A DNA stretch of 64,000 nt from Verrucomicrobiota bacterium (GCA_030604905.1 JAUVVA010000003.1:1-64000), one strand, 5' to 3'; counted from the stretch's first letter, positions 32,513 to 64,000 are shown. Made by a program: numbers and translations. Notes: generated by a model from the sequence alone, not told the origin.

Positions 32513-33289
32513 TCAGCGCATACGGCCGTAGCGTTCGCGCCACGCGGCGGGATTGATTTGCCCGCCGCTCAAAAGTCCCGGAGCGAGGGAGGAGACGGAC
32601 AGATTCTCTACGTGCCCATCGGCAAAGAGCAGCACCGTGCGCCTGTCGTGCGCCCAACGAGCTGGGTCGAGTTCCGGACTATCCCCCAGAGAGTTGGCCC
32701 ATTGTCCCACGCTTCGTCCTGCCTCGCGCGCGGCTTGCAGATTCTCGACCAACAGCACGGTCCGCGACGGGTTTTGGATGGCGCCGCTCGGCGCTCCGCG
32801 GTCGGCCGGCCACGTGGCGCCCAGGTCCGTGTAGGCACCGAAGGCGTTGCAGATCCAGCCAGGCATCGAATAGCTTTGGGCAAAGGCTCCGGCCGGACGG
32901 GCACTGCCATCGACCGAGCAACGGAAGGCCTCGTAACGGGCTTCCGCCCCTCGATCACGCACACCGGCTTCCGCCGTCCAGCTTTCGAAGGGCTGATCGA
33001 TTCCGAGAAAAGGGCGAAGATCTATGTCCCAATTGCTGAAAGGAGCCGCGTGCCCTGCATTGGGGAAACGGCCCTTTTCATTGGAGTGAAGCAGAAACGC
33101 GGTGCCCAGCTGGCGCATGTTGGACGCGCACTTCATCCGGTTCGCCGTCGCGCGCGCCGCGCCCACGCTTGTGATCGTGATCGCGAACAGGATGCCGATG
33201 ATGGCGATCACCGTCAGGAGTTCGATGAGGGTGAAGCCGGACCGGGCAAGGACGCCGCGGCGCAACGAGGAGGTGGGGTGGGGAAACAT
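32513..33289 (-). CDS. Prepilin/pseudopilin-type protein with H-X9-DG motif
   Basis: RSGFTLIELLTVIAIIGILFAITITSVGAARATANRMKCASNMRQLG; C-terminal AHDRRTVLLFADGHVENLS fits H-X9-DG exactly. Confidence 0.9.
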   Translation of the reverse strand: MFPHPTSSLRRGVLARSGFTLIELLTVIAIIGILFAITITSVGAARATANRMKCASNMRQLGTAFLLHSNEKGRFPNAGHAAPFSNWDIDLRPFLGIDQPFESWTAEAGVRDRGAEARYEAFRCSVDGSARPAGAFAQSYSMPGWICNAFGAYTDLGATWPADRGAPSGAIQNPSRTVLLVENLQAAREAGRSVGQWANSLGDSPELDPARWAHDRRTVLLFADGHVENLSVSSLAPGLLSGGQINPAAWRERYGRMR

Positions 33290-33295
33290 GGGCAA

Positions 33296-33309
33296 CTAAA
33301 AGCTTTTAA
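33296..33309. promoter_or_regulatory. Operator site CTAAAAGCTTTTAA (O1)
   Basis: Near-perfect palindrome; TTGACG on the minus strand at 33333-33328 and TATTAA overlapping the site form a plausible promoter for the pseudopilin gene. Confidence 0.75.
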
Positions 33310-33386
33310 TATGAATTTTGCCTCCCTCGTCAAATCATTTTCGGCAATCCGAGCAGGTCGTGCTTGTCGAAGGGGCGGGGCGGGAA

Positions 33387-33400
33387 CTAATACATTTTAA
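33387..33400. promoter_or_regulatory. Degenerate operator CTAATACATTTTAA (O2) abutting the LacI start codon
   Basis: Half-sites CTAA/TTTTAA preserved; ends at the base before ATG 33401; TTGTCG at 33364-33369 upstream. Confidence 0.45.
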
Positions 33401-34489
33401 ATGAAACGCCAGGGGTCCGCAGCAATCGTCGCATCGAGCAAGTCCGTCCCGCCCCGCCGCCCGATGACCTCCACCGAGCTGGCGCGCAAGCTCGGGCTCT
33501 CCACCACCACCGTCTCATTCGTGCTCAACGGCTTGGCAGAGGAGAAGAAGATCGCTCCCGAAACGGCCAAACGGGTCCTGGCAGCGGCGGAGAAGCACAA
33601 CTACATCCCAAATCCCTTCGCCCGCTCCCTGCACAAGAAACGCAGCGGCGTCATCGGCGTAGTTCTCGGCAACTTCAAGATGGACTATGCCGAGGCCGCG
33701 ATGCTGGGCATGCGCCGGGTCCTCGACGCGACAGGGCACGTGCCCTTCGTGGCAATGCACTCCTTCGAGACCGAGCGCAACCGAAAGGAACTGCTGTCAT
33801 CCCTGGGCCGCCGCGATGAGGGCATCATCGCCTTTCCCCTCCCCGACTGCGACGAGGTTTACCAGAAGATCCACAAGGCGGGGCTCCCTCTCGTCCTTTT
33901 CGGCGAGGTCTTGACCGGCCTGGAAAACATCAGCTCGGTGACTTGGGATTCGGAGGCGGCCGCCCGTGCCGCGGTCCAGCACTTGGTTGCGATCGGACGG
34001 CGTCGGATCGCGTTTCTCGGCGTGGACTACCCGGGCATCGGCAACCTCCATCGGTTCAAGGCCTACAACGACGTCCTGAAAAGCAACGGGCTTCCGGTCA
34101 GCCGCCAATGGATCTCCCACTCCCCGGCGCTGCTTGACCCCGAAGTCATCACCCGCCGCGCCATCGACCAATTCTTCCCGGGCGGGCCCAAGGCGTCGCC
34201 CGACGCCATTTTCGCGGTCAACGACGGTCTGGCCCTCCCCGCCCTCGACGAACTTCAGCGCAGACGGATCCGCGTGCCAGACGACGTCGCCGTGATCGGC
34301 ATGCAGGACCTCCCCATTTCCGGCCATCCGGCCATAGGCCTGAGCACTATCCGCGAACCCGTCCGCGAGATGGGGGAAGCGGCCGCGCGGGTGCTCATCG
34401 ACCTCATCGAAGGCAGGGCTCGCCCTCCCGTTCGCGTGGCCATCCCGTCCTGCGAACTTCTGATCCGCCGCACCACCGCCGGAGTTTGA
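33401..34489 (+). CDS. LacI family transcriptional regulator (candidate local regulon master)
   Basis: MTSTELARKLGLSTTTVSFVLNGLAEEKKIAPETAKRVLAAAEKHNYIPNPFARSL plus sugar-binding domain. Confidence 0.93.
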   Translation: MKRQGSAAIVASSKSVPPRRPMTSTELARKLGLSTTTVSFVLNGLAEEKKIAPETAKRVLAAAEKHNYIPNPFARSLHKKRSGVIGVVLGNFKMDYAEAAMLGMRRVLDATGHVPFVAMHSFETERNRKELLSSLGRRDEGIIAFPLPDCDEVYQKIHKAGLPLVLFGEVLTGLENISSVTWDSEAAARAAVQHLVAIGRRRIAFLGVDYPGIGNLHRFKAYNDVLKSNGLPVSRQWISHSPALLDPEVITRRAIDQFFPGGPKASPDAIFAVNDGLALPALDELQRRRIRVPDDVAVIGMQDLPISGHPAIGLSTIREPVREMGEAAARVLIDLIEGRARPPVRVAIPSCELLIRRTTAGV

Positions 34490-34568
34490 TACCCTTCGGC
34501 CATCGGCCGCGGCCGAGGCCCACGGTTTGCGCCACCGCCCCCAGCTATTGCGGTTGACAGCTCCAACT

Positions 34569-34586
34569 TTAACTAAAAGCTGTTAG
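34569..34586. promoter_or_regulatory. Operator TTAACTAAAAGCTGTTAG (O3)
   Basis: Reverse complement shares 18 contiguous nt with 52012-52029; TTGACA at 34554-34559. Confidence 0.8.
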
Positions 34587-34601
34587 GTGAACACCCCGAG
34601 C

Positions 34602-37262
34602 ATGCCACCCCTCTTTCCGGTTCGCCCCCTCCCCTTCCTCGGTCTCTGCCTCGTCCTCGGCCCCAGCGCATCCCTCGGCTCCCCCTCCTGGATCTGGGCC
34701 TCAGGTCCGGCGGCGAATCCCGCCGAATGGGCGCCTTCGGGGGATATCTTCCTCCGCCACACCTTCGAGGTGCCCGCGTCCCTGTCTGACGTGACGACAG
34801 CCACCCTCGACGTGGGCGTGGACAACCGGGCCGAGGTTTTTCTCAACGGCCGCTCGTTGGGGGAAAGCGAAGGATGGAACCCCATGCGCCGCAGCGAGGT
34901 CACCAAGCTGCTCCGCGGCGGGCGAAACGTCGTCGCCGTCCGCGCGATCAACACCGGTCCGGGACCGGCGGGTTTCATCGCGGAGCTGAAAATCAAGCTC
35001 AGGTCGGGCCGCGAAATCGTGATCGCTTCCGGACCCGATTGGAAGGCGACGGACAAGGAACCGGGCGAGCATTGGCACCGGGGAGAATGGGAAGCGCCGG
35101 CCGCCCTCGCCTTCGCGCAGAACGGAGACCTCCCATGGGGAATCAGCCTCCCGCCTCGGAACGACCAGACTTTCCCCTCCCTGAAAGCCAAGGGGGCCGA
35201 TCTCGAGCCGCTCAACGACATGCTCCGTCGCTTCCACGCCTCGGCGAACATGGACGTGGCCGGCACCTACGCCCTCGCTTGGCTACCGCGCGGAATGCTG
35301 TGGGTGTCGGACAGCAAGTCCCCCGGCGAGTCGATCACCCGTCGCCGGATTGCCAACCGCCTGGGAGGCATGCGAATCAGCCCTGAGGGCTACGTCTCCT
35401 GCCACCAGCACGAGGGCCTCGCGCACTCGGAGGGCTGGCCCTTCCCCTTCCCTTCCCAAAGCCAGGGCTTCAGCTTCTATTTCACCCTCTCCGGTCTCCC
35501 TTTCGGCCCCGAGTTCGGCCTCCCGCTCGTCACCGAGCCCGCCGGGTGGCGTTTGGAAAACGCCGAGACCAAGACGATGGACGCCGCGCGCGGATGGACG
35601 GTCGCGCTGACGGGCCCGGGCGCCGTCCTCTCCTCGCCCGCCTTCGACGTCGATGCCTTCGTCAGCCCCTTCATCCGCGTAAAGTGGAACGCCGGCAAGC
35701 TGCCCGCCGACGCGCGCCCGGAGCTTTCCTGGATCTCCACAAACGAGTGGGGTGATCGAACCGAACATCGCCTGCCCTTCCCCGCGCCCTCGGCCGCCAG
35801 CCGACATCCCGTCCAGGATTTTGACATCCCCGTGCAAACCCTCACCCAGGCGAAGGGCCGGATAACCGCGCTCCGTATCCATTTCAACAATACAGATCCG
35901 GGCGAGGTGACAATCCAGCGGATCTTCTCCGCCGTCGATTCACGCCATCCGATCAACAACCCCAACTACCTTGTCGCCGCCACCGATTTCTATCGCTGGA
36001 CGGGCGACCGCGAGTGGCTGCTGCGCAACCTGCCCCGGATGCGCCTCGCGCTCCGCTACATGCTTTCCGAGTTCGCGGTGAGGGAGACGGGCCTCATCCG
36101 CCGTCCTTGGGTCGGTCACGACGGACGCAGCGGCCTGGAAATCACGCCCGAAGGCCGCAAGATCATCCACCACGGCGTCGGCATCGGCGGAAACTACTGG
36201 GACCTGATGCCCTTCGGCGGGGACGACGTCATCGCCACGACCTACCTCCACCCCGCCCTCGCGCAGATGGCGGCCTTGGAGGAACTCGCCGCACGCGAAT
36301 TCCCCGCGCAGGCGGGAGCTCCCGAAGAAGGTCTCGACGCGGCCTCGCTGCGCCGCCTCGCCGGCAAGGTGCTCGAGCGCTTCCGCTCCACCTTCTGGAA
36401 CCCGGAGACCCTTCGCTTCGCCCCCATCGACGACCAGCGGCGCTTTCGCGACTACGGCTACACCTTCGTGAACAACGAGGCCATCTTCTACGGCCTGGCC
36501 GACGAGCTTCAGGCGCGCGACATCCTCGCTTGGACCAGTGGCGATCGAATCGTCGAGGGCGACACCTCCACCGGCGCCGACATCTATCGCTGGCGCTTCG
36601 GCCCGCGCGCCTCCACCCGCCGCAACATCTCCTACTACCAATACGTGTGGTCCGCGCCTGAGTCGCTCGCCTTCGGCGACCAGGTGCAGGACGGCGGCGC
36701 CGTGCTCGGCTTCGCGTTCCACGACCTCGTGGCTCGCATCCGCCACCGTAGCCCCGATGACGCCTGGGCCCGGCTGCTTGAGACCTTCGAATGGTATCGC
36801 GAGGTCCAGGCGGCGGGAGGCGCCCGCGCCTACTATTCCGTGCCCGGCCGCGGCACGCTCCAGGGAGGAGGCACCGCCGGCGGCCTCGGAATCGACGAGG
36901 AATTTTACGAAAGCGTTCTCATCGCCTCCGTTCTGCTCGAGGGCTTTCTGGGCTTCGAGCCCCGGCCCGACGGATTCGACCTTCATCCGCGGCTGCCCGC
37001 CGCCGTCCCGGCGATGACCATAACCGACATCGCCTATCGTCGCCTTCGCTGGGACGTCGAATTCTCCTCGCAACGCGTCGCCTTCCGCGTCGCCGAAGGC
37101 CAGCCCGACCGGCCGCTGCTGGCGCGTCTGGCCGAGGGACGCTGGACGGGCTCTGCGGTCGGCCCGGACGGGCGCCGCATCGAACTACGCTCCACCGACG
37201 GCCGCAGCTTCACCGTGCCCGCCGAGCCGTTGAAGGAGCTAATCTTCAGCCGCACCGAGTGA
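34602..37262 (+). CDS. Secreted six-hairpin glycosidase, GH78-like N-terminal domain (alpha-L-rhamnosidase-like)
   Basis: Signal-like N-terminus; FLRHTFEVPASLSDVTTATLDVGVDNRAEVFLNGRSLG; six-hairpin region YLVAATDFYRWTGDREWLLRNLPRMRLALRYMLSE. GTG at 34587 is an alternative start. Confidence 0.7.
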   Translation: MPPLFPVRPLPFLGLCLVLGPSASLGSPSWIWASGPAANPAEWAPSGDIFLRHTFEVPASLSDVTTATLDVGVDNRAEVFLNGRSLGESEGWNPMRRSEVTKLLRGGRNVVAVRAINTGPGPAGFIAELKIKLRSGREIVIASGPDWKATDKEPGEHWHRGEWEAPAALAFAQNGDLPWGISLPPRNDQTFPSLKAKGADLEPLNDMLRRFHASANMDVAGTYALAWLPRGMLWVSDSKSPGESITRRRIANRLGGMRISPEGYVSCHQHEGLAHSEGWPFPFPSQSQGFSFYFTLSGLPFGPEFGLPLVTEPAGWRLENAETKTMDAARGWTVALTGPGAVLSSPAFDVDAFVSPFIRVKWNAGKLPADARPELSWISTNEWGDRTEHRLPFPAPSAASRHPVQDFDIPVQTLTQAKGRITALRIHFNNTDPGEVTIQRIFSAVDSRHPINNPNYLVAATDFYRWTGDREWLLRNLPRMRLALRYMLSEFAVRETGLIRRPWVGHDGRSGLEITPEGRKIIHHGVGIGGNYWDLMPFGGDDVIATTYLHPALAQMAALEELAAREFPAQAGAPEEGLDAASLRRLAGKVLERFRSTFWNPETLRFAPIDDQRRFRDYGYTFVNNEAIFYGLADELQARDILAWTSGDRIVEGDTSTGADIYRWRFGPRASTRRNISYYQYVWSAPESLAFGDQVQDGGAVLGFAFHDLVARIRHRSPDDAWARLLETFEWYREVQAAGGARAYYSVPGRGTLQGGGTAGGLGIDEEFYESVLIASVLLEGFLGFEPRPDGFDLHPRLPAAVPAMTITDIAYRRLRWDVEFSSQRVAFRVAEGQPDRPLLARLAEGRWTGSAVGPDGRRIELRSTDGRSFTVPAEPLKELIFSRTE

Positions 37263-37291
37263 TTAGCCCCGAACGATCTTTTCCCCGCCCC

Positions 37292-38530
37292 ATGAAAACC
37301 ACCGCTATCACACTCGGCCTCATCGCCGCCACCCTGCCCATGTTCGCCGAATCTGCGCGCAACTTCTCGGAGGACCTCCAATTTCTGCGCCGCCACACGT
37401 CGGTCATAGAGCTGCGCCGCGGCGAGGCCGCGATCGCCGTCGTGCCGGAATACCAGGGTCGTGTCATGACCAGCACCGCCACCGGCCCCTCCGGCACCAG
37501 CTACGGCTGGATCAATTACAGGCTGGTCGAGCAAGGCGTGCTTCCTGAAGAGCGAGTCCGCGGAAAACTAGAGTCAAAGATCTACGTCTTCGGCGGCGAG
37601 GAACGCTTTTGGCTCGGGCCCGAGGGCGGCCAGTTCGGGCTCTTTTTCGCGCCCGGCTCCGCCTTCGACTTCGAAGCGTGGAAAACGCCCGCCGCCATCG
37701 ACACCGAGCCCTTCGACCTCGTTTCCCGCTCGGACACCGAGGCCGAGTTTCGTCGCGAGTTCTCGGTGCGAAATCACTCCGGCACCCGCTTCCAACTGAG
37801 GGTGGATCGCACCGTGCGACTGCTCCCCGACGATGAGATCCAGTCCCTCCTTGGCGCCCGGCTCCCTGAAGGCGCACGCGCCGTGGCCTACGAAACGATC
37901 AACGTCATCACGAATCGAGGACAGGCCGCATGGGAGCCGCAGAGCGGGCTGATCTCCATCTGGCTCCTGGGCATGTATAAGCCTTCGCCCTCGACCGTGA
38001 TGGCCATCCCCTTCCGGCAAGGTCCAGAGCGCGAGCTGGGGCCGATCGTAAACGACGCCTACTTTGGCAAGATCGCCCCGGACCGCCTTCGCGTTGCCGA
38101 CGGGATCGTGTTCTTCAAAGGCGACGGCGCTTCGCGGGGCAAGATCGGCATCCCGCCCCGCCGCTCCCTCGGCGTGGCCGGCAGCTACAGCCCTGATCTC
38201 GGCTCGCTCACGCTCGTGCTCTACACTCCACCCGACGACGCGACACTGCCGTATGTGAACTCGATGTGGGAGATCCAGGCCGAGCCTTACGCCGGCGACG
38301 CCATCAACGCCTACAACGACGGCTCCCCCGCGCCTGGCGAGCCGCCCCTGGGTCCCTTCTACGAGCTCGAAACCTCCTCTCCCGCCGCGGCGCTGCGTCC
38401 CGGCCAAAGCCTCACGCACCGCCAGGTCACGATGCACATCGCGGGCGCCCCCGCCGCGCTCGATCCCATCGCCCGGATGCGGCTCGGAGCCTCGGTCGGC
38501 GCGATACAGGGCGCATTTGCCCAACCCTGA
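37292..38530 (+). CDS. Secreted protein of unknown function (DUF6786-like, mutarotase-like fold)
   Basis: Signal MKTTAITLGLIAATLPMFAES; AIAVVPEYQGRVMTSTATGPSGTSYGWINYRLVEQG...ERFWLGPEGGQFGLFFAPG. Confidence 0.6.
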   Translation: MKTTAITLGLIAATLPMFAESARNFSEDLQFLRRHTSVIELRRGEAAIAVVPEYQGRVMTSTATGPSGTSYGWINYRLVEQGVLPEERVRGKLESKIYVFGGEERFWLGPEGGQFGLFFAPGSAFDFEAWKTPAAIDTEPFDLVSRSDTEAEFRREFSVRNHSGTRFQLRVDRTVRLLPDDEIQSLLGARLPEGARAVAYETINVITNRGQAAWEPQSGLISIWLLGMYKPSPSTVMAIPFRQGPERELGPIVNDAYFGKIAPDRLRVADGIVFFKGDGASRGKIGIPPRRSLGVAGSYSPDLGSLTLVLYTPPDDATLPYVNSMWEIQAEPYAGDAINAYNDGSPAPGEPPLGPFYELETSSPAAALRPGQSLTHRQVTMHIAGAPAALDPIARMRLGASVGAIQGAFAQP

Positions 38531-38569
38531 ACCGCCTCCCCTCCCTCGTCCTCCGGCCCACTCTCCGTC

Positions 38570-40843
38570 ATGAAAAATTCCTTCTGGTCCCACCCTTCGC
38601 CTGATCCCGACACCTACTCCCTGTTTCGCGGGCGCTTTCGTCTCGAGACGTCGGCCGAGGTGGAGTTTCGCGTCGTGGGCTCGGCTTGGTATGAGGCTTG
38701 GCTGAACGGCAAGCCCCTCCTTGAGGGGCCGCTCCGCTTCGCGCTGGATCGACCCGAATACCAGATCGAGCGCGTCCTCCTGCCGGCCGGCGAGCATGTC
38801 CTCGCTTTCCATGCACACCACATCGGCGAGGAGACGCGTATCCTGAAGAACACGCCTGCGTTTCTCTGGTGCGACGTTCTGGCCGCCGACACGCCGCTCG
38901 CGATCGACTGGCGCTGCCTCCCGCTCAAATCGCAAGGATCCAAGACGCGCCGCATCAACCCGCAGCTTGGCTGGATCGAGTGGCGCGACACGCGGCTTGA
39001 GCCGGAGGGCTTCGAGACGCCCGCCTTTGACGATTCGAGTTGGACGCCGCCCGTCTGGGACGCCTCGCCCCTGCCCGATCCCGTCCCGGCCGACCTCGGT
39101 TCGGTGCAAACGCTCGCGCACCGGCTCAAGCCCTGCGGACAGGGCCCCCTCGCCCACACCTTTGGCTATACCACCGACGAGCCGGCCTTCGTCTTCCACT
39201 CGCGCGACCGGGTCTGTTCGGAACTCCCGGCCAAGGGGCTCTGGCGACGCTACGACCTGGGGCGGGTGCGCCTTGGCCGCCCCTGCTTCCGCCTCCGCGC
39301 GCCGGCCGGGACCGTCATCGAATTTGCCCTGGCCGAAAGCCTCACCGAGGGCCGCGTAAGCCCCTACATCAACCTCTCCGCCGGCACCTCGTGTAATCTC
39401 GACCGCCACGTCGCGCGCGGCGGAGAGCAGGTGTTTCGCCCGCTCACTCCGAAAGGCGGTCGGTTCCTCGAGGTGCACGTGGTCAACGCGCGCGAAGGCG
39501 TCGAGTTTCTTGCGGAGGAGTTCCTTGAACGCTGCTACCACGCGCCCACCGAGGCGACCTTCCACTGCGGCGACAGCCTGCTTGAACGCATCTGGCAGGT
39601 CGGCGTGGAGACCTACCGCGGCTGCGCGGAGGACGCGCTCATCGACAACCCCACCCGCGAGCGCGGCCAATGGGTGGGCGACGTGGCCTCCGTCGGTTCC
39701 GAGATCGCCGCGGTCGCCTATCACGACCTGCGCCTCTGCAAGCGCGCGCTGGCGCAAGCCGCGCTTTGCCCCCGCGAGGACGGCCTCGTCGCCGGCATGT
39801 CCCCCGGCGGCTGCGTCTATCTCCCCACCTACGCCTTTCAATGGGCCGTGGCCGCGGTGGATCTCTTCCGGCTCACGGGCGACCAGGCGATGCTCCGCGA
39901 ACTTTGGCCCGCGGCCCGCCGCAACATGGACGCCATCCGCGCCTTCTGGCACGAGGATGGTCTTCACAACGTCGCCGGCTGGAATTTCGTGGACTGGGGC
40001 TACCGGGCGGAGGACGGCCCGATCGACACCGCGTGCAACCTGCACTACCTCTGGAGCCTTCGCTCGATGATCACGTGGGCGAAGGCCATCGGAGAACCAG
40101 CGGAAGCCTTCCAGGCACAGGAACTCGAATTGTCGCTGCTTCTTCGCGCACGACTGGCGGACAAGCAGCGAAAGGGCTGGGAACACATAGGCTACCACTG
40201 CGCCGCGCTCGCGATGCGTCTTGGCCTGGTCTGGGACGAAGCCGAGTGCCTCGCCTACCTTGAGCGGCACCTCCTCGCCTGTTTCCCCAACAACCGATCC
40301 GCCCCGCGCAACGACGATCCCACGGCGTTCAATAGCCAGCTCATCACCCCTTACTTTGCCCATTACGTGATGCCGCTTTTCATCGAGCGCGGCCGCATGG
40401 ACTTCGTGCTCGACCAGTTCCGGATCTGCTGGGGCGACTACATGCTCGCCGAAGGCAGAACCACGTGGATCGAGGTCTTCGACACACGCTGGAGCCATTG
40501 CCACCAGTGGGCCGGCTGCCCCACTTGGCAGCTCTCGCGCTACCTGCTCGGCCTTCGTCCGCGCTGCGACCGCGCCGTCGGCGATTTCGACTGGATCTTG
40601 CAACCCGGTTCCTGCGAGCGCGCCTCAGGACGCCTGCCGCACCCAGGAGGCGGATGGATCGACGTGGGCTGGACCCGCGACACCGAAGCGCTGCGCTGTC
40701 GCATCCGCACCGAGAAAGCCCTGCGGCTACGCCTGCCCGACGGCTCGGACCTCACCATCTCGGGCGAGACCACCTTCGCCCTTCCCGAACTCGCGCTCGC
40801 ATCCGCTCGGCGTCAGGCCAGCCGCGAGACCTCCTCGGTCTAG
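38570..40843 (+). CDS. GH78-like alpha-L-rhamnosidase family protein, cytoplasmic
   Basis: No signal peptide; DNPTRERGQWVGDVASVGSEIAAVAYHDLRLCKRAL and WIEVFDTRWSHCHQWAGCPTWQLSRYLLGLRP typical of GH78 six-hairpin enzymes. Confidence 0.8.
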   Translation: MKNSFWSHPSPDPDTYSLFRGRFRLETSAEVEFRVVGSAWYEAWLNGKPLLEGPLRFALDRPEYQIERVLLPAGEHVLAFHAHHIGEETRILKNTPAFLWCDVLAADTPLAIDWRCLPLKSQGSKTRRINPQLGWIEWRDTRLEPEGFETPAFDDSSWTPPVWDASPLPDPVPADLGSVQTLAHRLKPCGQGPLAHTFGYTTDEPAFVFHSRDRVCSELPAKGLWRRYDLGRVRLGRPCFRLRAPAGTVIEFALAESLTEGRVSPYINLSAGTSCNLDRHVARGGEQVFRPLTPKGGRFLEVHVVNAREGVEFLAEEFLERCYHAPTEATFHCGDSLLERIWQVGVETYRGCAEDALIDNPTRERGQWVGDVASVGSEIAAVAYHDLRLCKRALAQAALCPREDGLVAGMSPGGCVYLPTYAFQWAVAAVDLFRLTGDQAMLRELWPAARRNMDAIRAFWHEDGLHNVAGWNFVDWGYRAEDGPIDTACNLHYLWSLRSMITWAKAIGEPAEAFQAQELELSLLLRARLADKQRKGWEHIGYHCAALAMRLGLVWDEAECLAYLERHLLACFPNNRSAPRNDDPTAFNSQLITPYFAHYVMPLFIERGRMDFVLDQFRICWGDYMLAEGRTTWIEVFDTRWSHCHQWAGCPTWQLSRYLLGLRPRCDRAVGDFDWILQPGSCERASGRLPHPGGGWIDVGWTRDTEALRCRIRTEKALRLRLPDGSDLTISGETTFALPELALASARRQASRETSSV

Positions 40844-40852
40844 ACCGCGCCC

Positions 40853-43966: not shown

Positions 43967-44001
43967 GCCCCGGCCCGCGCACCCCGTCCGTCCCTGAGCT
44001 C

Positions 44002-52702: not shown

Positions 52703-52762
52703 GGGGCGGTGCATCCCAGCCGACAGTTCCCGCGTCCGCCACGGCCTGCCCTCTTCCACCCG

Positions 52763-53437
52763 ATGCAAACTCAATCCTCGTCAAAGACCCAAAGGCGCAT
52801 GGCGGGCTTCACCCTGATTGAGCTGCTCACGGTGATCGCCATCATCGGCGTCCTCGCCGCCATCCTCATTCCCGTGGTCGGGCGCGTGCGCGAATCCGCT
52901 CGCAAGGCGAACTGCGTTTCGAATCTCCGCCAGATCGGCATGTCCCTGCAGCTTTTCGGAGACGAGCGTGGACGTTTCCCGCCCGCGCAATCCACTCCCG
53001 GCGGCACCTTGACCAACTGGATCATCCAGCTCGCCGAGGGCGGCTACGCGCAGAACTACATCCCGATCCGTCTCGGCGTGGACACGATGTGGATCTGCCC
53101 CACCGCGCGCACGATCCACACTCCCACCGTCGAGCACAACGCCAACACCTACGGCGCCAACGCCGTCGCCCTGGGCGATATCGGCCTCGCGGCCAGCGCC
53201 CCGTCGATCAACCGGGCAAGCAGCCCCGGGCGCACCGCCCTCGCGATGGATGGCGCTTGGACCGGCGGCATGTTCGTGGTCAGCGTGCATCCCGAAACGC
53301 TCCGCCCCGAGCAGACGCATCCGCCGGGCTCCGGCGCCGCCGTGAACGTCCTCTTCATGGACGGCCACGTGAGAAGCATCCGCATCGCCGAGCTTCCCCC
53401 CTCCACCGACGACATCTTCTGGAATGGCCGAGGTTAA
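52763..53437 (+). CDS. Prepilin/pseudopilin-type protein, tandem paralog
   Basis: MAGFTLIELLTVIAIIGVLAAILIPVVGRVRESARKANCVSNLRQIG; tail HPPGSGAAVNVLFMDGHVRSIR...DIFWNGRG. Confidence 0.93.
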   Translation: MQTQSSSKTQRRMAGFTLIELLTVIAIIGVLAAILIPVVGRVRESARKANCVSNLRQIGMSLQLFGDERGRFPPAQSTPGGTLTNWIIQLAEGGYAQNYIPIRLGVDTMWICPTARTIHTPTVEHNANTYGANAVALGDIGLAASAPSINRASSPGRTALAMDGAWTGGMFVVSVHPETLRPEQTHPPGSGAAVNVLFMDGHVRSIRIAELPPSTDDIFWNGRG

Positions 53438-53477
53438 AAACACCGCGCCCTCCGCCGTCCTCCCGCTTCACCCTCCC

Positions 53478-54917: not shown

Positions 54918-55024
54918 CTTTTGCCACCGTGCCGGCCCCGCTTGCCCGCGGGCGGTGTCCGGCCTACCCCGGTGCCCTCCAAAGGCGTGCCGCCCTCCCT
55001 TCCTGCCCCCTGCCACCCCGCACC

Positions 55025-56497
55025 ATGTCACTCGTCGCCCCGCCCGCCGCCCCGTCCGCTCCCCCCGCCGACGCGCGCGTGCCGTTCTCCCGCAAACTCC
55101 TTTGGGGCGCGGGCGGCGCGGCCGACAACATCATGTATAACGGGCTGAGCGCCCTCGTCCTGCCGATCTTCAACCTGGGCCTCGGAGTGGACGCCGTGCT
55201 CCTTGGCTACGCCATGGGCATTCCCCGTCTGCTCGACGCGATCACCGATCCTCTTATTGGCAACCTCTCCGACAACACCCGATCCCGCTGGGGCCGGCGC
55301 CGCCCCTACATCCTCTGTGGCGCGATTGGAGCCGGCGTGCTTCTCGCCACGCTCTTCAACCCCGGAGCCGGCTGGTCCACCGACGTCCTTTTCTGGTGGT
55401 TCCTCATTCTCTGCTCCCTCTTCTACGTCGCCTACACCTTCTTCATGATCCCCTACTCGGCCCTCGGCTTCGAGCTGACGACCGACTACGCCGAGCGCAC
55501 GCGCGTCCTCGCCTGGCGACCCTACCTCGGCTTCGCCTCCGGCCTCGCCATCCCCTGGCTCTACAAGCTCTGTTTCGTCTTCGGCGAAAACGAGGTCGAG
55601 GGCGTGCGCGTCGTTGCCGTTTTGATGGGGATAACCGTGATCGCGCTCGGCCTCCTGCCCGCGCTCTTCGTGCCCGAGCCGCCCGCGCCCGCCATCGCAC
55701 CGGCGCCGCTGCCCCTCCTCCAATCGCTGCGCGTCACCTTCACCAATCCGGCATTTCTGCTCCTTGCCGGCGCCACTCTCTGCATTCTTCTCGGCCTCTT
55801 TCTCGCCGGGCCTCTCGGGCTCTACCTCTCCATGTTCTATGTCTTCGGCGGCGACAAGGAGGCCGCCGCCACGATCGGCGGCTGGGCCGGCGTGGCCGGC
55901 ATGCTCGCCGGCTACGTCGGCCTGCCCCTCGCCACCTGGTATTCCGCCCGCTTCGGCAAGCGCCACGCCGCCCTCCTCTTCGTCGGCATCGCGACCCTCA
56001 GCATCCCGCTTACCTGGTGGCTCTTCACCCCCGCCAACCCCTGGCTCATGCTCGTGCCCGCCGTGATCATCGGCATCACGATCAACGGCGCCTTCCTCGT
56101 CGGCGTCTCCATGCTCGCCGACGTCTGCGACGCCGACGAACTTCGCACCGGCCTGCGCCGCGAGGGCATCTACAGCGCCTCGATGGAGTTCGGGAAGAAA
56201 TGCGCGATCGCCCTCTCCACCGTCCTTGGCGGCTACCTCCTCGCCGTCGCCGGTTTCGACCAGAGCCAGGCCACCCAGACCGAGAGCACCCTCACCGCGC
56301 TCCGCCTCGGCTACATCCTCGTGCTCGGCCTCGCCTTCCTCACCGCCTTCCTCCTCTTCCGCCGCTTCCCCCTCACCCACGAGAGCGCCCGCGAAATCCG
56401 CCGCCAACTCGACGCCCGCCGCCCCGACGCCGCCCAGCTTCGGGCCCGACGCGCGCAAAGCGAAACAGCTGGAGAGCAACGCGCCGCGCCACGGTGA
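55025..56497 (+). CDS. MFS sugar transporter, GPH/MelB family
   Basis: 12-TM pattern; LLDAITDPLIGNLSDNTRSRWGRRRPYILCGAIGAG; SMLADVCDADELRTGLRREGIYSASMEFGKK. Confidence 0.92.
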   Translation: MSLVAPPAAPSAPPADARVPFSRKLLWGAGGAADNIMYNGLSALVLPIFNLGLGVDAVLLGYAMGIPRLLDAITDPLIGNLSDNTRSRWGRRRPYILCGAIGAGVLLATLFNPGAGWSTDVLFWWFLILCSLFYVAYTFFMIPYSALGFELTTDYAERTRVLAWRPYLGFASGLAIPWLYKLCFVFGENEVEGVRVVAVLMGITVIALGLLPALFVPEPPAPAIAPAPLPLLQSLRVTFTNPAFLLLAGATLCILLGLFLAGPLGLYLSMFYVFGGDKEAAATIGGWAGVAGMLAGYVGLPLATWYSARFGKRHAALLFVGIATLSIPLTWWLFTPANPWLMLVPAVIIGITINGAFLVGVSMLADVCDADELRTGLRREGIYSASMEFGKKCAIALSTVLGGYLLAVAGFDQSQATQTESTLTALRLGYILVLGLAFLTAFLLFRRFPLTHESAREIRRQLDARRPDAAQLRARRAQSETAGEQRAAPR

Positions 56498-56573
56498 TCT
56501 TTGCGTATCGTCCTGGCTTTCGCGGCGATTCCCTACACCCCATCGGCAGATCCAGGCCCCGGACTCTTCCCAC

Positions 56574-58094
56574 ATGATCCCCCGCGTCACCTCGTTTACC
56601 TCACTCCTGATGTCCGCATTCCTCGGCGGGGCACTCGCCGCTGCGAACGAGCCACAGGGAGTCGAGGCCGTTGCGGGAACACCGGCCGCAAGCCGACTTG
56701 CCGAGCCCGCCGCCCTTCGGCTGTGTGTGGACCTGACGAAGAAGCTGCGCCCCGTGAGCCCGCTTCTGAACGGAATCTGCCTCAACGAGGCTAACGACAC
56801 GGACGAACGCTGGGCCGACGGCAAGTTCGCCCGGGGCCTCGAAGAGATCGGTGTCGGCGTCCTCCGCTTTCCCGACACGACACACACCGGCTTCCACTGG
56901 CAAAGCCCCGGCGCCCCGCTTTGGAAGGACCTCTGGGAGACGAATCCAGACTCGCCCTACTACGTGGCCGACCGCTCGACGCTCCGGCCCGAAGCCGCCA
57001 TGAGCGTGGACGAGTTTGTCGCGGTGTGCCGGGAGATCGGAGCCGAGCCCATCTTGGATGTGAATTTCCAATCAGGGCTTCGCTACGGCCGTTTGGCCGA
57101 CTCGCTCGCGGAGAGCCTAGCCTTGGTCAAGCACTGCCGCGCCAACGGATACGACGTGAAATTCTGGCGCGTCGGCAACGAGCCCTTCCAGTATTCAGCA
57201 GAAGAACTCGCGGCCGTGTTGAACGACTGGGTCCCGCGGATGAAGGCCATCGATCCGGACATCAAAATCCTCTTCAACGCCGCCAACCACTATGGTGGGA
57301 AACACAGCCACGAACGCTGGCGCAGAATTTTCGAACTCGCGGGCCAACACATCGATATTGCGGACATGCACCATTACTGGCGCTGGGTTTACCCGCCGAA
57401 TCCCGCCATCGGGCCCACTTGGGAACGCTTTATCTCCGGCGACGAAGTCCCGCTCATCGAAGATCTACGAAACGCCACGAGCTCCGGGGAGTCGGCCCGA
57501 GCGCTCCGCGAGATGGTGAAGCGCGAGTTTGGCCGAACCATCGACGTCGCGATAACCGAATGGAACTGCGGGCCGGTCGGCAGCTATCCGATGTCGTCGT
57601 TCATGTATGCGATGATTCACGCCGAGCTCATGATGCAGTTCGTGGACGGCGGGGTGTTGATCGCCTGCCGCTGGCCAGGCACGGGACCGGACCCGCGCAG
57701 AGGGAGCAAGGCCTCCCTCTTCCACCCCCGCAGCAAGGAAAAGCTCCCCCCGTGGCACACGGCGCGGCTCTATCGAGACGTCTTGGTCGGTGACCAAATC
57801 GAGGCCACAAGCTCGGAGCGCCGCGTTCCGGTCTTGGCGACCCTCGCGCCAGACGCAGCCACGGTCTGGCTCATGACCTTGAACAAGACGGCCGACGACC
57901 TCGTGACCCATATCGACTTGTGCGGGAGCGAAGCGCTGCAGGTCGACAGCGCGTCGATGGTGCCGGCAGAAGGCGCGGTGGCTTCCGATCACGCTGAAAT
58001 CATTCATCCCCCTACAAGGATCATCGGCCAAGGGATCAAGTTAACCCTTCCGGCCTTCTCGCTCACGCGTCTTTCCATCACCGTGCGCCACTGA
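56574..58094 (+). CDS. Secreted GH51/GH39-like glycosidase (alpha-L-arabinofuranosidase-like)
   Basis: VSPLLNGICLNEAND...; VKFWRVGNEPFQYSAEELAAVLNDWVPRMKAIDPDIKILFN; AITEWNCGPVGSYPMSSFMYAMIHAELMMQFVDGGV. Confidence 0.72.
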   Translation: MIPRVTSFTSLLMSAFLGGALAAANEPQGVEAVAGTPAASRLAEPAALRLCVDLTKKLRPVSPLLNGICLNEANDTDERWADGKFARGLEEIGVGVLRFPDTTHTGFHWQSPGAPLWKDLWETNPDSPYYVADRSTLRPEAAMSVDEFVAVCREIGAEPILDVNFQSGLRYGRLADSLAESLALVKHCRANGYDVKFWRVGNEPFQYSAEELAAVLNDWVPRMKAIDPDIKILFNAANHYGGKHSHERWRRIFELAGQHIDIADMHHYWRWVYPPNPAIGPTWERFISGDEVPLIEDLRNATSSGESARALREMVKREFGRTIDVAITEWNCGPVGSYPMSSFMYAMIHAELMMQFVDGGVLIACRWPGTGPDPRRGSKASLFHPRSKEKLPPWHTARLYRDVLVGDQIEATSSERRVPVLATLAPDAATVWLMTLNKTADDLVTHIDLCGSEALQVDSASMVPAEGAVASDHAEIIHPPTRIIGQGIKLTLPAFSLTRLSITVRH

Positions 58095-58273: not shown

Positions 58274-58294
58274 CTAAAAAACTTAGTTAATTAG
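58274..58294. promoter_or_regulatory. Degenerate operator CTAAAAAACTTAGTTAATTAG (O5)
   Basis: Retains CTAAAA and TTAGTTAA of the consensus with one base missing; ATGACC 14 nt upstream. Confidence 0.45.
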
Positions 58295-58526: not shown

Positions 58527-58540
58527 CTAAAAGGATTTAG
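58527..58540. promoter_or_regulatory. Operator CTAAAAGGATTTAG (O6)
   Basis: Perfect CTAAA/TTTAG arms; TTGAAA at 58507-58512; next gene starts at 58647. Confidence 0.6.
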
Positions 58541-58646: not shown

Positions 58647-61600
58647 ATGGAACCCACGCCCAACTCCTCCTGCTGCGGCGACAAGTCATGCTCCCCCAAG
58701 CACGTTCCGCGTCGTGATTTTCTGCGACTTGCCGCTCTCCTTCCCGTTGGAGCCGCCGCACTCCGGCGCGCCGCCTTCGCCGCCCCGATGGCGGGACCCT
58801 TCGTGCGCGAGGATTTCCTCCGGCTCATTCCGGAAGATAAGAAGCTCGATCCCGTCTGGATCGCCTCACTCACCCGACGCGGAGAACCGGAGACCTTCCG
58901 CGGCGAGGCGCTCCAGCGCATCGGCATGCCCATCGGCGGACTTTTCTGCGGCACACTCTACCTCGGCGGCGACGGTCGTTTGTGGCTCTGGGACCTTTTC
59001 AACGGCCGCCACCTTGGCATCGAGCCGAAGCAGGTGCCGTTCCGCGGGGTGAACTTGGACGCGATGTCGGGAAACAGCTACGTCCGCCCGCTCCTCGCGT
59101 CCGATTACCGGCGAGTCGGCCAAGGCTTCCGCCTCCACATCAAATCCGACACCGGCACGATCACGAGGACCGTGGACGCCGAGCCCGGCACAGGCTTCAA
59201 AAATGTCGCCTTCACCGGCCAGTATCCGATTGGACGAGTCGATTATCAGGACCCGGCCCTGCCCTTGGAACTCCAACTGGAAGCCTTCTCCCCCTTCGTC
59301 CCGCTCGATATCGAGGCCTCCGCAATCCCCGCCACCGTTTTCAGCTTCCGAGTCACCAACCGCGGCAAGGAGCCGGTTGAGGCGTTCTTGGAGGGGTTCC
59401 TCGAAAACGCAGTCTTCCACCTCCACCGCTCCCTCCGCGGAGAACGCCACCGCAAAACGGTCGACATCTCGGGGGCGACCATCGCCGCCCTCACCGCCAC
59501 GATCAACGAGTCCGACAACCCCGCGCTCCCCGACGAGGTCTTCGAAGATTGGAAACACCCCTCCTTTGCCGCAGCCGGCTGGACTGCGGAGGGCCGCGCC
59601 TTTGGTGACGGTCCAGTCGCCCGCGGCGCCATGCCTGCCTATATCGGCGACATCGGCGGTGAAGGGGATCGCTTCGCCCATTCCCACGCCGGCAACACCG
59701 CCGCAACAATCCCCGATAGAGACAACCTCACCGGACGCCTTCTCAGCCGTCCCTTCGAGATCAGGCACCGCTTCCTCCGAGTCTGGATCGGCGGGGGCGG
59801 CGATGTGACGCGTCTAGGTCTCCGCGTCCTCGTCGACGGAAAAACCGTCCGCAGCCTGGCCGGCAAGAACGCCAACCCCCTGAGTCACGAGTGGGTGGAC
59901 CTTTCCGAGTTCCTTGGCCGACAAGCTCGGATCGCGATCGATGACAGCGCGTCGGGCGCCTGGGCCCACACCGGAATAGGGCAGATTCTCTTCACCGACC
60001 GAGCCCCGGTCGACCCCCAGAGCCTGAAACGCCTCCCCGATGACGGGAGCATGGCGCTCTCGCTCATCGGCCCCCCCGCGGAGCTGCGCGATCCCGATGC
60101 GGCAACACCACTTTCCGGCAAATTAGAAGCTCGTCTCGGCCGCCGGCTCACCCTCGCCCCGGGTGCCAGCACCACCGTCGAATTCGTCCTCGCATGGCAC
60201 TTCAAAAACGCCCCGGCCGACATTGTCGGAGGTCGCGACCGAATCTACGCCGCCCGCTTCCCCGACGCCGTCACCGTCGCCACCCACCTCGCACGAAACC
60301 TCCCTGTCCTCGCCGCCAAGACCCGTGCTTGGCGCGACACCTGGTATGAGTCGAGCCTGCCCCACTGGTTCCTCAATCGCACCTTTGCCAACACCTCCAT
60401 ACTCGCCACCGACACCTGCTACTATTTCTCGGATGGTCGCTTCTACGCCGACGAGGGCGTCGGCTGTTGCCCGGGGACGTGCACTCATGTCTGGCAATAC
60501 GCCCAAGCCATGGGGCGCCTCTTCCCCTCGATCGAACGCGACCATCGCGAAAGAGTCGATTTCGGCCTCGCACTGAGACCCGACGGTGCCATCGCCTTCC
60601 GCGGCGAATACGGCGACACCTACGCCATCGACGGCCAGGCCGGCCGCGTCCTTGGCGTGCTCCGCGAGCACCAAATGTCAACCGATTCGACCTTCCTACG
60701 CCGCATCTGGCCATCGGTGAAACGGGCGATAGAAAAAATGATCGATACCGACCGAGACGACGACGGCATCGTGGTGGGCCCGCTCCATAACACCCTCGAT
60801 GCCGACTGGAACGGCGTCGTGCCTTGGCTCTGCGGCATGTATCACGCAGGCCTCGCCGCCGGCGAGGCCATGGCCTTGGAACTCGACGAGCCCGATACCG
60901 CCCGCCGCTATCGGAAGATTCGCGAGGCGGGGCAGCGCAAACTCGAGAAATGCTGGCGCGAAGACTACGGCTACTATGTGCAACTTGGCGACCCCCAGCG
61001 AAAGACTGAAGTCGGCCACTACGAAGGGTGCCACATCGACCAAATTTTTGGTCAGAGTTGGGCCTGGCAGGTTGGCCTCGGTCCGGTTTTCCCTCCGGAA
61101 CGCGCGCGCCGCGTCCTCGGCTCGCTTTGGCGCTTCAATTTCACGCCCGACGTCGGCCCCTTCCGCGATGCCAAGCAGATGGGCCGCTGGTATGCCCTAC
61201 CCGGCGACGGTGGTATGATCATGGTCTCAAATCCGTTCGCCCCCGACATCGAGTTTACCGGCCCCTCCGCTCCCACCGCGCAATACTTCAACGAGTGCAT
61301 GAGTGGTTTTGAACACCAAGTCGCCAGCCACATGCTCTGGGAAAACATGATCATCGAGGGCCTCGCAGTCACCCGCGCCATCCACGACCGCTACCACCCG
61401 TCGCTGCGCAACCCCTACAACGAGATCGAATGCAGCGACCACTACGCCCGAGCCATGGCCAGCTACGGCACCTTCCTGGCCGCCTGCGGCTACGAATACC
61501 ATGGCCCGCGGCAACACCTCGCGTTCGACCCACGTCTCGGCGCTGAGGACTTCCGCGCCGCCTTCACCGCCGCGGAGGCCTGGGGCTCCTTCGCCCAACG

Positions 61601-61829
61601 CAAAAGCGCAACCGAACTCTCCGCATCCCTTGAAGTCCGCTTCGGTCATCTGCCCTTGCGCACGCTCTCGCTGCGCGCACCCAAGGCTGTCGCCGGCCGC
61701 GTCCGAGCCGCAATCGATGAACACACGGTCGCCGCCTCTCTCCGCCACGAGTCCGGCCGCGCCCTGATCGAGTTCGTGCCCGCCATCACGATTCCGGAGG
61801 GCTCCACCCTCCACGTCGCGCTCTTCTGA
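58647..61829 (+). CDS. GH116-family glycosidase with Tat signal peptide
   Basis: Twin-arginine motif RRDFLRLAALLPVGAAALRRAAFA; IGMPIGGLFCGTLYLGGDGRLWLWDLFNG; GPLHNTLDADWNGVVPWLCGMYHAGLAAGEAMA. Confidence 0.85.
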   Translation: MEPTPNSSCCGDKSCSPKHVPRRDFLRLAALLPVGAAALRRAAFAAPMAGPFVREDFLRLIPEDKKLDPVWIASLTRRGEPETFRGEALQRIGMPIGGLFCGTLYLGGDGRLWLWDLFNGRHLGIEPKQVPFRGVNLDAMSGNSYVRPLLASDYRRVGQGFRLHIKSDTGTITRTVDAEPGTGFKNVAFTGQYPIGRVDYQDPALPLELQLEAFSPFVPLDIEASAIPATVFSFRVTNRGKEPVEAFLEGFLENAVFHLHRSLRGERHRKTVDISGATIAALTATINESDNPALPDEVFEDWKHPSFAAAGWTAEGRAFGDGPVARGAMPAYIGDIGGEGDRFAHSHAGNTAATIPDRDNLTGRLLSRPFEIRHRFLRVWIGGGGDVTRLGLRVLVDGKTVRSLAGKNANPLSHEWVDLSEFLGRQARIAIDDSASGAWAHTGIGQILFTDRAPVDPQSLKRLPDDGSMALSLIGPPAELRDPDAATPLSGKLEARLGRRLTLAPGASTTVEFVLAWHFKNAPADIVGGRDRIYAARFPDAVTVATHLARNLPVLAAKTRAWRDTWYESSLPHWFLNRTFANTSILATDTCYYFSDGRFYADEGVGCCPGTCTHVWQYAQAMGRLFPSIERDHRERVDFGLALRPDGAIAFRGEYGDTYAIDGQAGRVLGVLREHQMSTDSTFLRRIWPSVKRAIEKMIDTDRDDDGIVVGPLHNTLDADWNGVVPWLCGMYHAGLAAGEAMALELDEPDTARRYRKIREAGQRKLEKCWREDYGYYVQLGDPQRKTEVGHYEGCHIDQIFGQSWAWQVGLGPVFPPERARRVLGSLWRFNFTPDVGPFRDAKQMGRWYALPGDGGMIMVSNPFAPDIEFTGPSAPTAQYFNECMSGFEHQVASHMLWENMIIEGLAVTRAIHDRYHPSLRNPYNEIECSDHYARAMASYGTFLAACGYEYHGPRQHLAFDPRLGAEDFRAAFTAAEAWGSFAQRKSATELSASLEVRFGHLPLRTLSLRAPKAVAGRVRAAIDEHTVAASLRHESGRALIEFVPAITIPEGSTLHVALF

Positions 61830-61905
61830 TCGCCCCCTCCCGCATCGGACCGCCGAGCCACGGCCTCGCTCGTGCCATCACGAGCCCCGCACCCCAACCT
61901 GACGG

Positions 61906-62343
61906 ATGAAACCGAACGTCTTGATCCTCTGCACCGGCAACTCCTGTCGCAGCCAAATGGCGGAGGGCCTCTTGCGCGCAGCCGCGGGCGACATCGTCAC
62001 GGTCCTCAGCGCCGGCGTGAAACCCACCGGCCAGATACATCCGCTCGCGCTCAAGGTGATGGCGGAAGTCCAAATCGATATCTCTTCGCACTCCTCCAAG
62101 CACCTCGGCGTTTTTTCCGACCTTCCGATCGCAACGATCATCGCCGTCTGCGGACACGCCGACCAGACGGTTCCACTTTCACCGCGCGTATCGCGATACC
62201 ACTGGCCGTTCCGCGACCCCTCCGAGTTCAATGGCGCCGAAGAGGAGGCGCTTGTCCAGTTTCGCATCGTGCGAGACGAGATGAAACGAACCTTCGATGC
62301 CTATGCCGCCGGCCTTCGTGACGGACGTGGACTGCCCCTCTAA
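61906..62343 (+). CDS. Low-molecular-weight phosphatase / ArsC-like protein lacking the third redox cysteine
   Basis: LILCTGNSCRSQMAEGLLR P-loop; DISSHSSKHL; AVCGHADQTVPLSPRVSRYHWPFRDPS. Confidence 0.85.
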   Translation: MKPNVLILCTGNSCRSQMAEGLLRAAAGDIVTVLSAGVKPTGQIHPLALKVMAEVQIDISSHSSKHLGVFSDLPIATIIAVCGHADQTVPLSPRVSRYHWPFRDPSEFNGAEEEALVQFRIVRDEMKRTFDAYAAGLRDGRGLPL

Positions 62344-62532
62344 ACCCGGCATCAGCACCGCGCCTCTCGTGGCCGCCCGCACTTCAACCCATCCCGCATC
62401 GCCGCTCAGACTCGCCGATCCTGCGCCGGTCCCGCCTCCTGCCTGGTTTACCCGCTCAACCCATCGCCCCGGCCCCGAGAACTCCGTGAATTGACGTCCT
62501 CCAAACAATTTCCTTGACCAGACCACCGAAGA

Positions 62533-62550
62533 CTAAAAGCTTTTAATTAA
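62533..62550. promoter_or_regulatory. Operator CTAAAAGCTTTTAATTAA (O7)
   Basis: Matches O4 at 16 of 18 positions; TTGACC at 62514-62519; PEP-CTERM start codon at 62592. Confidence 0.8.
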
Positions 62551-62591
62551 ACAAGGGCATCTTCTCGTCCCAAGCTTTCCTGCCGCACCCC

Positions 62592-63287
62592 ATGAACCTA
62601 AAAACCCACATCGTTATCGCCGTCGTCTCTTGCGCGACGTTTTCCCTGCCCGCCCTGCAAGCTCAGACCGCTGAACTTGTCACCAACGGCAATTTCTCGG
62701 CTGGATCCGCCGCCTTCGGCAGTTCGCCGACAGGATGGAACGCCACCGTTGGCGCCGACGGCGTCGGGCAGTTCAGCCCCGGCGTTTCCGCCCCTCTCAG
62801 CGGCCAAGTCGCCTACATGGGCGCCGGCACGCAGATCATCCAGACCTTCTCCGTCGGCTTGGCGGCCAACACCACCTACACGGTCTCCTTCAATTTTGTC
62901 GGATCGGTGGGCGACTTCTCAGGAACCAACACCTTCAACGGGTTCATCGGTTACGGCGTCGGCTCGGGCGGCACCAGTGCCTTTGGCGGCTTCATCGAGG
63001 CCGGCGACATCCTCTCGGGGTCCAACGCGTGGGCGCCCCTCATTGGCACCTCGACCTCCAGCTTCAGCGTTTCCTTCACCACGCCCGGAATCATCACCGG
63101 CTCGGCGAACAACCTGGCCATCATCCTGAATCCCGTGTTCGACGGCGTGACCGGCGCCCAGGCCTACTTGGACAATGTCTCCGTCACCGCGACCGTCATC
63201 CCCGAGCCCTCGAGCGCCGCGCTCTTGCTAGGCTTCGGCGCGCTCGGCCTCAGCACGCTGCGCCGTCGTCGCAAGGCCGCCGCCTGA
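62592..63287 (+). CDS. PEP-CTERM sorting domain protein
   Basis: Signal MNLKTHIVIAVVSCATFSLPALQAQ; NGNFSAGSAAFGSSPTGWN; C-terminus IPEPSSAALLLGFGALGLSTLRRRRKAAA. Confidence 0.92.
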   Translation: MNLKTHIVIAVVSCATFSLPALQAQTAELVTNGNFSAGSAAFGSSPTGWNATVGADGVGQFSPGVSAPLSGQVAYMGAGTQIIQTFSVGLAANTTYTVSFNFVGSVGDFSGTNTFNGFIGYGVGSGGTSAFGGFIEAGDILSGSNAWAPLIGTSTSSFSVSFTTPGIITGSANNLAIILNPVFDGVTGAQAYLDNVSVTATVIPEPSSAALLLGFGALGLSTLRRRRKAAA

Positions 63288-63312
63288 TACCCGCGCACAC
63301 CTTGCATGGATG

Positions 63313-63347
63313 GAAGGGCGGCTCCCTCGGCCGCCCTTCTTTTTTTG
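63313..63347 (+). terminator. Rho-independent terminator between PEP-CTERM gene and fucP
   Basis: GAAGGGCGGC-tccctcg-GCCGCCCTTC-TTTTTTT. Confidence 0.9.
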
Positions 63348-63389
63348 CCAAACGCCCGACACGCCCCCTCTCCGACTGTCGCCTCGCAA

Positions 63390-64000
63390 ATGAAAACCCT
63401 CGAGTCACCCCGCTCCATCCCGACCGCTCCGCGCGCCCGTATCGTGCCGCGCGAATACCTGCTGCCATTCATCCTGCTCACCACGTGCTTCGCCGCTTGG
63501 GGCGCGGCCAACAACATGACCGACCCCTTGGTCAAGGTCTTCAGCCGGGTCTTCAGCATGAGCAACCTGCAGGGCGCGCTCGTGCAATTCTCCTTTTACG
63601 GCGCCTATTTCTGCCTCGCCCTGCCCGCCGCCATCCTGATCAAGAAAACCTCCTACAAGACCGGCGTCCTGATCGGCCTCGGCGTGTTCATCACCGGCGC
63701 GCTCCTTTTCTACCCCGCAAGCCGGACCATGGAGTATTGGCACTTCCTCGCCGCCATCTACATCCTCGCCTCCGGCCTCTCGATCCTCGAAACGAGCTGC
63801 AACCCCTACGTCATCGCCCTCGGCCCGCAGGAAACCGCGACGCAACGCCTCAACCTCGCCCAGGCCTTCAACCCTGTAGGCTCCAACCTCGGCGTCTTCC
63901 TCGCCGCCCTCCTCATCCTCCCGAAGATCCACCCGGCGACCGACGAGCAACGCGAAGCGCTCGCGGCCAGCGAGCCCGCCACGCTATCCGCGATTCAAGG
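63390..64000 (+). CDS. fucP: L-fucose:H+ symporter family permease (FucP), truncated by window end
   Basis: LLPFILLTTCFAAWGAANNMTDPLVKVFSRVFSMSNLQGALVQFSFYGAYFCLALPAAILIKKTSYKTGVLIGL...SGLSILETSCNPYVIALGPQETATQRLNLAQAFNPVGSNLG. Confidence 0.9.
   Translation, partial: MKTLESPRSIPTAPRARIVPREYLLPFILLTTCFAAWGAANNMTDPLVKVFSRVFSMSNLQGALVQFSFYGAYFCLALPAAILIKKTSYKTGVLIGLGVFITGALLFYPASRTMEYWHFLAAIYILASGLSILETSCNPYVIALGPQETATQRLNLAQAFNPVGSNLGVFLAALLILPKIHPATDEQREALAASEPATLSAIQ

Follow-up and report, generated by a model that had tools for sequence, protein, structure and literature searches.

The 64,000-nucleotide stretch of DNA analysed here (the window; Verrucomicrobiota bacterium, GCA_030604905.1, JAUVVA010000003.1:1-64000) lies on contig C94 and has a GC content of 68%. 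From position 32,513 onward it carries a lacI-type regulator gene, encoding the protein P0001, together with a series of glycan-utilisation operons, and upstream of these lies an even inverted repeat with a constant six-base spacer, present at five sites and, in weaker form, at a sixth. A single LacI-type regulon, as proposed in the initial annotation, is the best reading of this arrangement, with the regulator at 33401 backed by footprinting in three further genomes and by an association between helix type and half-site across 80 loci. All site strings listed in that annotation occur in the window sequence at the positions given for them, O3 being the core of its 18-mer (34569-34586). The candidate operators, scored with a position weight matrix (PWM) built from the five sites O1, O3, O4, O6 and O7, are as follows.

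O1, 33296..33309: CTAAAAGCTTTTAA; one mismatch to the consensus, 31.8 bits; 6 bp before the ATG of a divergent pseudopilin gene
O2, 33387..33400: CTAATACATTTTAA; 17.8 bits, outside the PWM training set; abuts the lacI ATG (0 bp)
O3, 34573..34586: CTAAAAGCTGTTAG; 26.0 bits; abuts the GTG at 34587 (0 bp), with an in-frame ATG at 34602 (15 bp)
O4, 52012..52025: CTAACAGCTTTTAG; 29.6 bits; 17 bp before the ATG at 52043
O5, 58274..58290: CTAAAAAACTTAGTTAA; spacer one base shorter, not recovered by the PWM; before a transporter stub
O6, 58527..58540: CTAAAAGGATTTAG; two mismatches, 23.5 bits, centre GG; 106 bp before the GH116 ATG
O7, 62533..62546: CTAAAAGCTTTTAA; 31.8 bits; 45 bp before the PEP-CTERM gene

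The PWM separates these sites clearly from the rest of the window: the five training sites score 23.5-31.8 bits and O2 scores 17.8 bits, while the next-best score in the 64 kb is 9.8 bits. O2 is a real, weaker site. The term "weak" applied to it earlier holds in so far as it scores below the other five, and understates a site standing well above the background; from its position against the lacI start codon, it is probably an autoregulatory site. The sixth sequence proposed earlier, O5 (CTAAAAAACTTAG), is a relic at best: its spacer has five bases instead of six, its best-register score of 7.2 bits falls below the background maximum, and it sits before a stub, so that it was rejected as a working site. 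The stub itself, which reads LRVLGLALLTALLLFRSFPLTHENAREIRRQLDARKA (the window at 58274-58440), resembles the C terminus of a sugar transporter of which the gene is otherwise lost.

The confinement of the motif is equally clear. The assembly, 81% complete, comprises 4,187,951 bases (4.19 Mb) and was scanned with mismatch patterns rather than with the PWM, using CTAAAAGCTTTTAG and CTAAAAGCTTTTAR/G as queries. With up to two mismatches, exactly five matches were found, namely O1, O3, O4, O6 and O7, each in an intergenic gap, as had been claimed, and all inside the block; no match at this level lies elsewhere in the assembly. Exactly three mismatches gave 17 further matches, all on other contigs. 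The reversed pattern, used as a control, gave 7-8 matches at two mismatches and 85 at three, more than the motif itself, and the motif is therefore confined and not frequent overall. The probability of all five sites falling within a 31.5-kb block of 4.19 Mb is about 2e-11, and when the window is described by a second-order Markov model, the number of matches of 12/14 or better expected per 64 kb is 0.04. Of the gaps between 33289 and 63306, the five that measure 90 bp or more each hold a site and the next largest (76 bp) holds none, in agreement with the earlier statement that nearly all transcription units are headed by one operator. The motif is thus confined to the neighbourhood of the regulator, as for a local LacI regulon.

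The regulator and the units headed by the sites are listed below.

32513..33289, minus strand: pseudopilin (N_methyl + DUF1559, Pfam), the target of O1
33401..34489, plus strand: lacI-type regulator P0001, 362 amino acids (Pfam LacI PF00356 and Peripla_BP_3; PDB matches to LacI, CcpA and PurR)
34587..51944, plus strand: O3 operon of about seven genes with gaps of up to 50 bp (Pfam/NCBIfam), comprising a rhamnosidase-like N-terminus, DUF6786, a GH78-type rhamnosidase, a GH106-like protein (weak), a GH39-like giant, a GH43/32/130-like protein and a TonB receptor
52043..58094, plus strand: O4 operon, with two pseudopilins, an arabinose-isomerase-like protein, a GPH symporter and a weak ArfA-like enzyme
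58647..62343, plus strand: O6 unit, GH116 and an ArsC/LMWPc-like protein
62592..64000, plus strand: O7 unit, a PEP-CTERM protein and a fucP-like permease, extending past the window end

Domain matches back the GH116, ArsC/LMWPc-like, isomerase, fucP, TonB receptor and pseudopilin labels of the initial annotation, as well as the GPH symporter; its "GH51" and "LamG-like" labels find no support in Pfam. P0001 combines an N-terminal LacI helix-turn-helix (HTH) domain (PF00356, 5.5e-10, 39.3 bits against a cut-off of 27) with a periplasmic-binding-like sensor domain (Peripla_BP_3, PF13377, 1.6e-29, 103.6 bits), the architecture that defines the LacI family. Its recognition helix reads S-T-T-T-V-S-F, and its hinge NPFARSLHKKRS retains the conserved alanine and leucine (Ala-51 and Leu-54 in NPFARSLH, numbering according to PMC2978694).

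Because the genome encodes 59 LacI HTHs, proximity alone is a weak argument for assigning the sites to this regulator; comparison with other loci decides the question. As a precedent from the family, 72% of LacI transcription factors are autoregulated, and most are local (PMC4052901). No close relative was returned when 84,980 species genomes were scanned with P0001 as a single protein query, and the full 22-mer, allowing up to three mismatches, gave one lone match beyond the own genome (in G145) among 388 genomes of the phylum; consequently, the exact motif is not conserved. The motif does, nevertheless, stand beside the lacI gene in three footprint genomes with regulators approximately 34-40% identical to P0001, two from other Verrucomicrobiota families (G281 and G224) and one from Phycisphaeraceae (L066/G563). 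In G281, CTAAAAGGTTTTAG occupies the gap between the divergent lacI homolog and the gene of an ATP-binding cassette (ABC) solute-binding protein. In G224, CTAAATCCATTTAG and CTAAAAGGATTTAG lie between lacI and a divergent GH31 gene and are the sole exact matches in that genome. In the Phycisphaeraceae locus, two sites 36 bp apart are likewise found between lacI and a divergent GH31 gene; here the regulator is 40% identical over the protein and 64% identical in the HTH, and a DUF1559 pseudopilin lies downstream, resembling the arrangement in the window. No site was found near the moderately similar regulators of G431 and G296.

A broader comparison used 80 loci picked solely by HTH/hinge similarity (TTVS[FL] helix), of which the 400 bp upstream were scanned. 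The palindrome CTAA-N6-TTAG was found at 12 of the 80 loci, compared with 0-4 for each of the alternative spacings between 0 and 14; allowing one mismatch raised the count to 35, against about 11 at other spacings. Loci with exact sites span Bacteroidota, Actinomycetota, Planctomycetota, Pseudomonadota and Verrucomicrobiota. Of 30 further LacI loci from the window's own genome, one had the palindrome, on contig C95, with differing inner bases. The computation thus shows that the TTVS[FL] helix type is associated with the CTAA-N6-TTAG half-site, which is in line with the finding that the outer half-site is dictated by recognition-helix residues (PMC2978694). The helix alone is insufficient, since the LacIs at C23 and C229 carry a TTVSL helix with an atypical hinge and have no such palindrome upstream. 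Taken as a prediction from these comparisons, the assignment of the sites to the LacI at 33401 is well supported. In most other LacIs of the genome (L034-L063), the hinge is likewise atypical (YRPDPLMARLMGMVR is one instance) and, unlike that of P0001, lacks the usual ARxL motif.

Computation gave the sites and their exclusive clustering, identified the regulator as a LacI and linked its helix type to the half-site; on binding, on repression rather than activation and on the effector, we infer the following. It is very probable, at roughly 0.87, that P0001 is a local, autoregulated and sugar-released repressor of the approximately 30-kb glycan-utilisation block, acting through five or six of the O sites. 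A P0001 dimer would bind the 14-16 bp palindrome (ACTAAAAGCTTTTAGT) and, at O1-O4, would cover the -10/start region or a very short leader, thereby blocking transcription; because the bound dimer would sit at this position, steric repression is the likeliest mode of action. A sugar freed from the target glycan would then bind the C-terminal domain, causing P0001 to leave the operator and allowing joint induction of the glycan hydrolase, TonB receptor, transporter and pseudopilin operons. Judging from gene content, our guess for this effector is a deoxysugar or pentose, for which L-rhamnose, L-fucose and L-arabinose are candidates. Such a ligand would fit the targets, namely rhamnosidase-type GHs, GH116, TonB receptor, GPH symporter, arabinose-isomerase-like protein, fucP-like permease and pseudopilins.

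Several points weigh against this reading. O6 and O2 depart from the consensus, and about 19% of the genome is absent from the assembly, so that the exclusivity of the motif holds for the assembled part. The best orthologue is approximately 40% identical, too distant for footprinting of the whole regulon. Many of the 80 loci are close kin, and the 12 exact sites are hence not independent events, representing at least five lineages; moreover, the patterns used to retrieve the TTVS[FL] set span both the recognition helix and the hinge. Finally, a simple sigma-70-type promoter scan placed no promoter at any operator, and for this reason the repression geometry rests on the start-codon distances. 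A TTGACG-N16-TATTAA sequence on the minus strand at O1, overlapping the operator, was read by eye and is not claimed as a promoter.

Some LacI-family proteins, such as Cra and CcpA, act as activators. An activating or dual function, in which the LacI protein would activate some targets, for instance from O6 at -106, and repress others, would account for the position of O6 (106 bp upstream of GH116) and of O7 (45 bp), compared with 0-17 bp for O1-O4, and the activator Cra is a documented precedent (PMC4052901); steric repression, however, fits the start-codon distance of most sites, and the promoter scan placed no promoter that could decide, so that we regard this function as unlikely. Slightly less probable still is that the palindromes are real operators read by, or shared with, another of the 59 LacIs, such as those encoded on C95, C23 and C229 or, within the window, at 16959 and 19099. 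The number of LacI HTHs, 29 of which were not read one by one, lends this some weight, as do the shared TTVSL helix of the LacIs at C23:6128 and C229:13369 and the related palindrome CTAAAGCGCTTTAG of the C95 paralog at C95:14534, with a one-mismatch copy at C95:12016. The C95 sites, however, have a CG centre and depart from the motif in their four inner bases; the LacIs of C23 and C229 combine their atypical hinge with only three-mismatch sequences on their contigs; the other LacIs of the window have different recognition helices (PSTVSR and TMTASR) and no site nearby; and P0001 is the sole LacI inside the block.

It is very improbable that the palindrome is a promoter element, a repeat or a chance feature of AT-rich gaps. 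The sites do fall in gaps that are richer in AT than the surrounding sequence, with its 68% GC, yet such gaps occur everywhere and the motif is limited to one genome block; it is, in addition, dyad-symmetric and recurs at lacI genes of other phyla.

The distinctive feature of the proposed P0001 operators is their centre. The dyad is GC in O1, O3, O4 and O7, GG in O6 and CA in O2, so that the CG pair usual in LacI operators is absent from these sites. The initial annotation had described central CG/GC-type pairs as established for the family; this stands for CG, whereas GC and GG centres are uncommon. Even palindromes were reported for 1251 of 1303 LacI transcription factors, 1173 of the 1251 being CG-centred, and the published non-CG even palindromes comprise 49 different and 29 degenerate ones (PMC4052901). 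The hinge leucine inserts at the central CG, and exceptions are called rare (Camas et al. 2010, PMC2978694). A non-CG centre consequently marks a variant and not an exclusion from the LacI operators, CG being usual and not required.

The distribution of such centres was compared on a tree of 35 LacIs, with sites found by fixing the outer half and not the centre; the comparison is fair but small, with few independent non-CG lineages. P0001 and the regulators of G281, G224 and L066, together with two from G019, fall in one clade of 12 rows with support 100/99, in which the remaining rows have no assigned centre, except for one CG member (L017). Six of the seven non-CG regulators belong to this supported, mainly Planctomycetota-Verrucomicrobiota clade, with GC, GG or CC centres; the seventh, from Paraflavisolibacter, has a less certain site at -296. 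The centre label is clustered beyond shuffles (1/500 as low), a value to which close copies contribute and in which a single site stands for both G019 rows. That site, CTGAATGCATTCAG, is the sole exact match to CTRAAWGCWTTYAG in the 7.4-Mb G019 genome; it directly follows one of the two lacI genes and precedes a GH42-like gene by approximately 180 bp. Also in G019 (L025:4947, L025:12163), a 34%-identical LacI is found close to CTAAAACGTTTCAG and CTAAAACGTTACAG, in which this half-site recurs around a CG centre.

At residue 20, Phe/Leu replaces the Arg of the coded TVSR group, and half-site position 6 is T instead of G. Since the published code is restricted to TVSR proteins (PMC2978694), the P0001 class lies outside it, and the TTVS[FL] class would fit as an extension. 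A more far-reaching proposal, which we offer tentatively and consider possible rather than probable, is that one LacI clade, which spans Verrucomicrobiota, Planctomycetota and Sumerlaeota, has for the most part given up the CpG dyad in favour of GpC, GpG or CpC at the kink step, keeping the hinge leucine, which would imply a different bending or no intercalation; Phe/Leu at residue 20 would then place the clade in a second recognition class beyond the TVSR code, with TAA at half-site positions 6 to 4.

Compared with the local LacI sugar regulons of the RegPrecise set (Ravcheev et al. 2014, PMC4052901), the system shares the even palindrome, a regulator inside the block, likely autoregulation and sugar-catabolic targets. 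It differs in its GC/GG centres and in the distance of O1-O4 from the start codon, 0-17 bp, whereas more than 75% of the published sites lie 30-140 bp away. With the TVSR recognition code (Camas et al. 2010, PMC2978694) it has in common that two helix residues plus residue 20 set the outer half-site, and the Ala-51 and Leu-54 of the hinge. PurR, CcpA and LacI, homologous to P0001 over the full length and sharing the hinge leucine, insert this residue at a central CpG in their operator complexes (PMC2978694), whereas the present operators have no CpG. The hydrolase cluster, TonB receptor, transporter and local regulator are also found in Bacteroidota-type polysaccharide utilization loci; here, in contrast, the predicted control is by a LacI protein, pseudopilins are part of the predicted regulon, and the Pfam scans made in this analysis reported no SusD-like protein.

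The analysis yields a full predicted regulon for one LacI protein in a lineage of Verrucomicrobiota that has about 59 LacI regulators. This phylum is apparently absent from the main survey of LacI regulons, where the word Verrucomicrobia does not occur (PMC4052901). The predicted regulon offers a direct test case for the strictness of the CpG-kink rule in LacI operators and a route by which the recognition code could be extended to TVS[FL] proteins.

As regards the limits of the regulon, a GH95-type gene (L001:4731-5966) that occupies the end of the contig, beyond the window, is not preceded by an operator, and the regulon therefore appears to end near fucP. Pseudopilin genes are found in the window at 32513-33289 and 52043-53437. 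The genome encodes 65 prepilin-type N-methyl proteins, and 19 of the 59 LacIs have such a neighbour at a distance of up to 2.5 kb, where about 4.4 would be expected; the linkage of pseudopilins to LacI genes may be general in this lineage.

Other LacI regulons of the genome (C95, C49) could be read likewise. When the surroundings of most of the genome's other LacIs were searched automatically for palindromes, these two loci were the only ones to give any. The C49:52410 LacI (L049) has a near-perfect 20-bp palindrome, TTTTGCATAATCATGCAAAA, approximately 30 bp upstream of the HTH codons. The C95 paralog (L059) has a perfect, CG-centred 18-bp palindrome, TTCTAAAGCGCTTTAGAA, upstream at C95:14534, and the near copy 2.5 kb away at C95:12016 makes a second regulon readable in the same genome.

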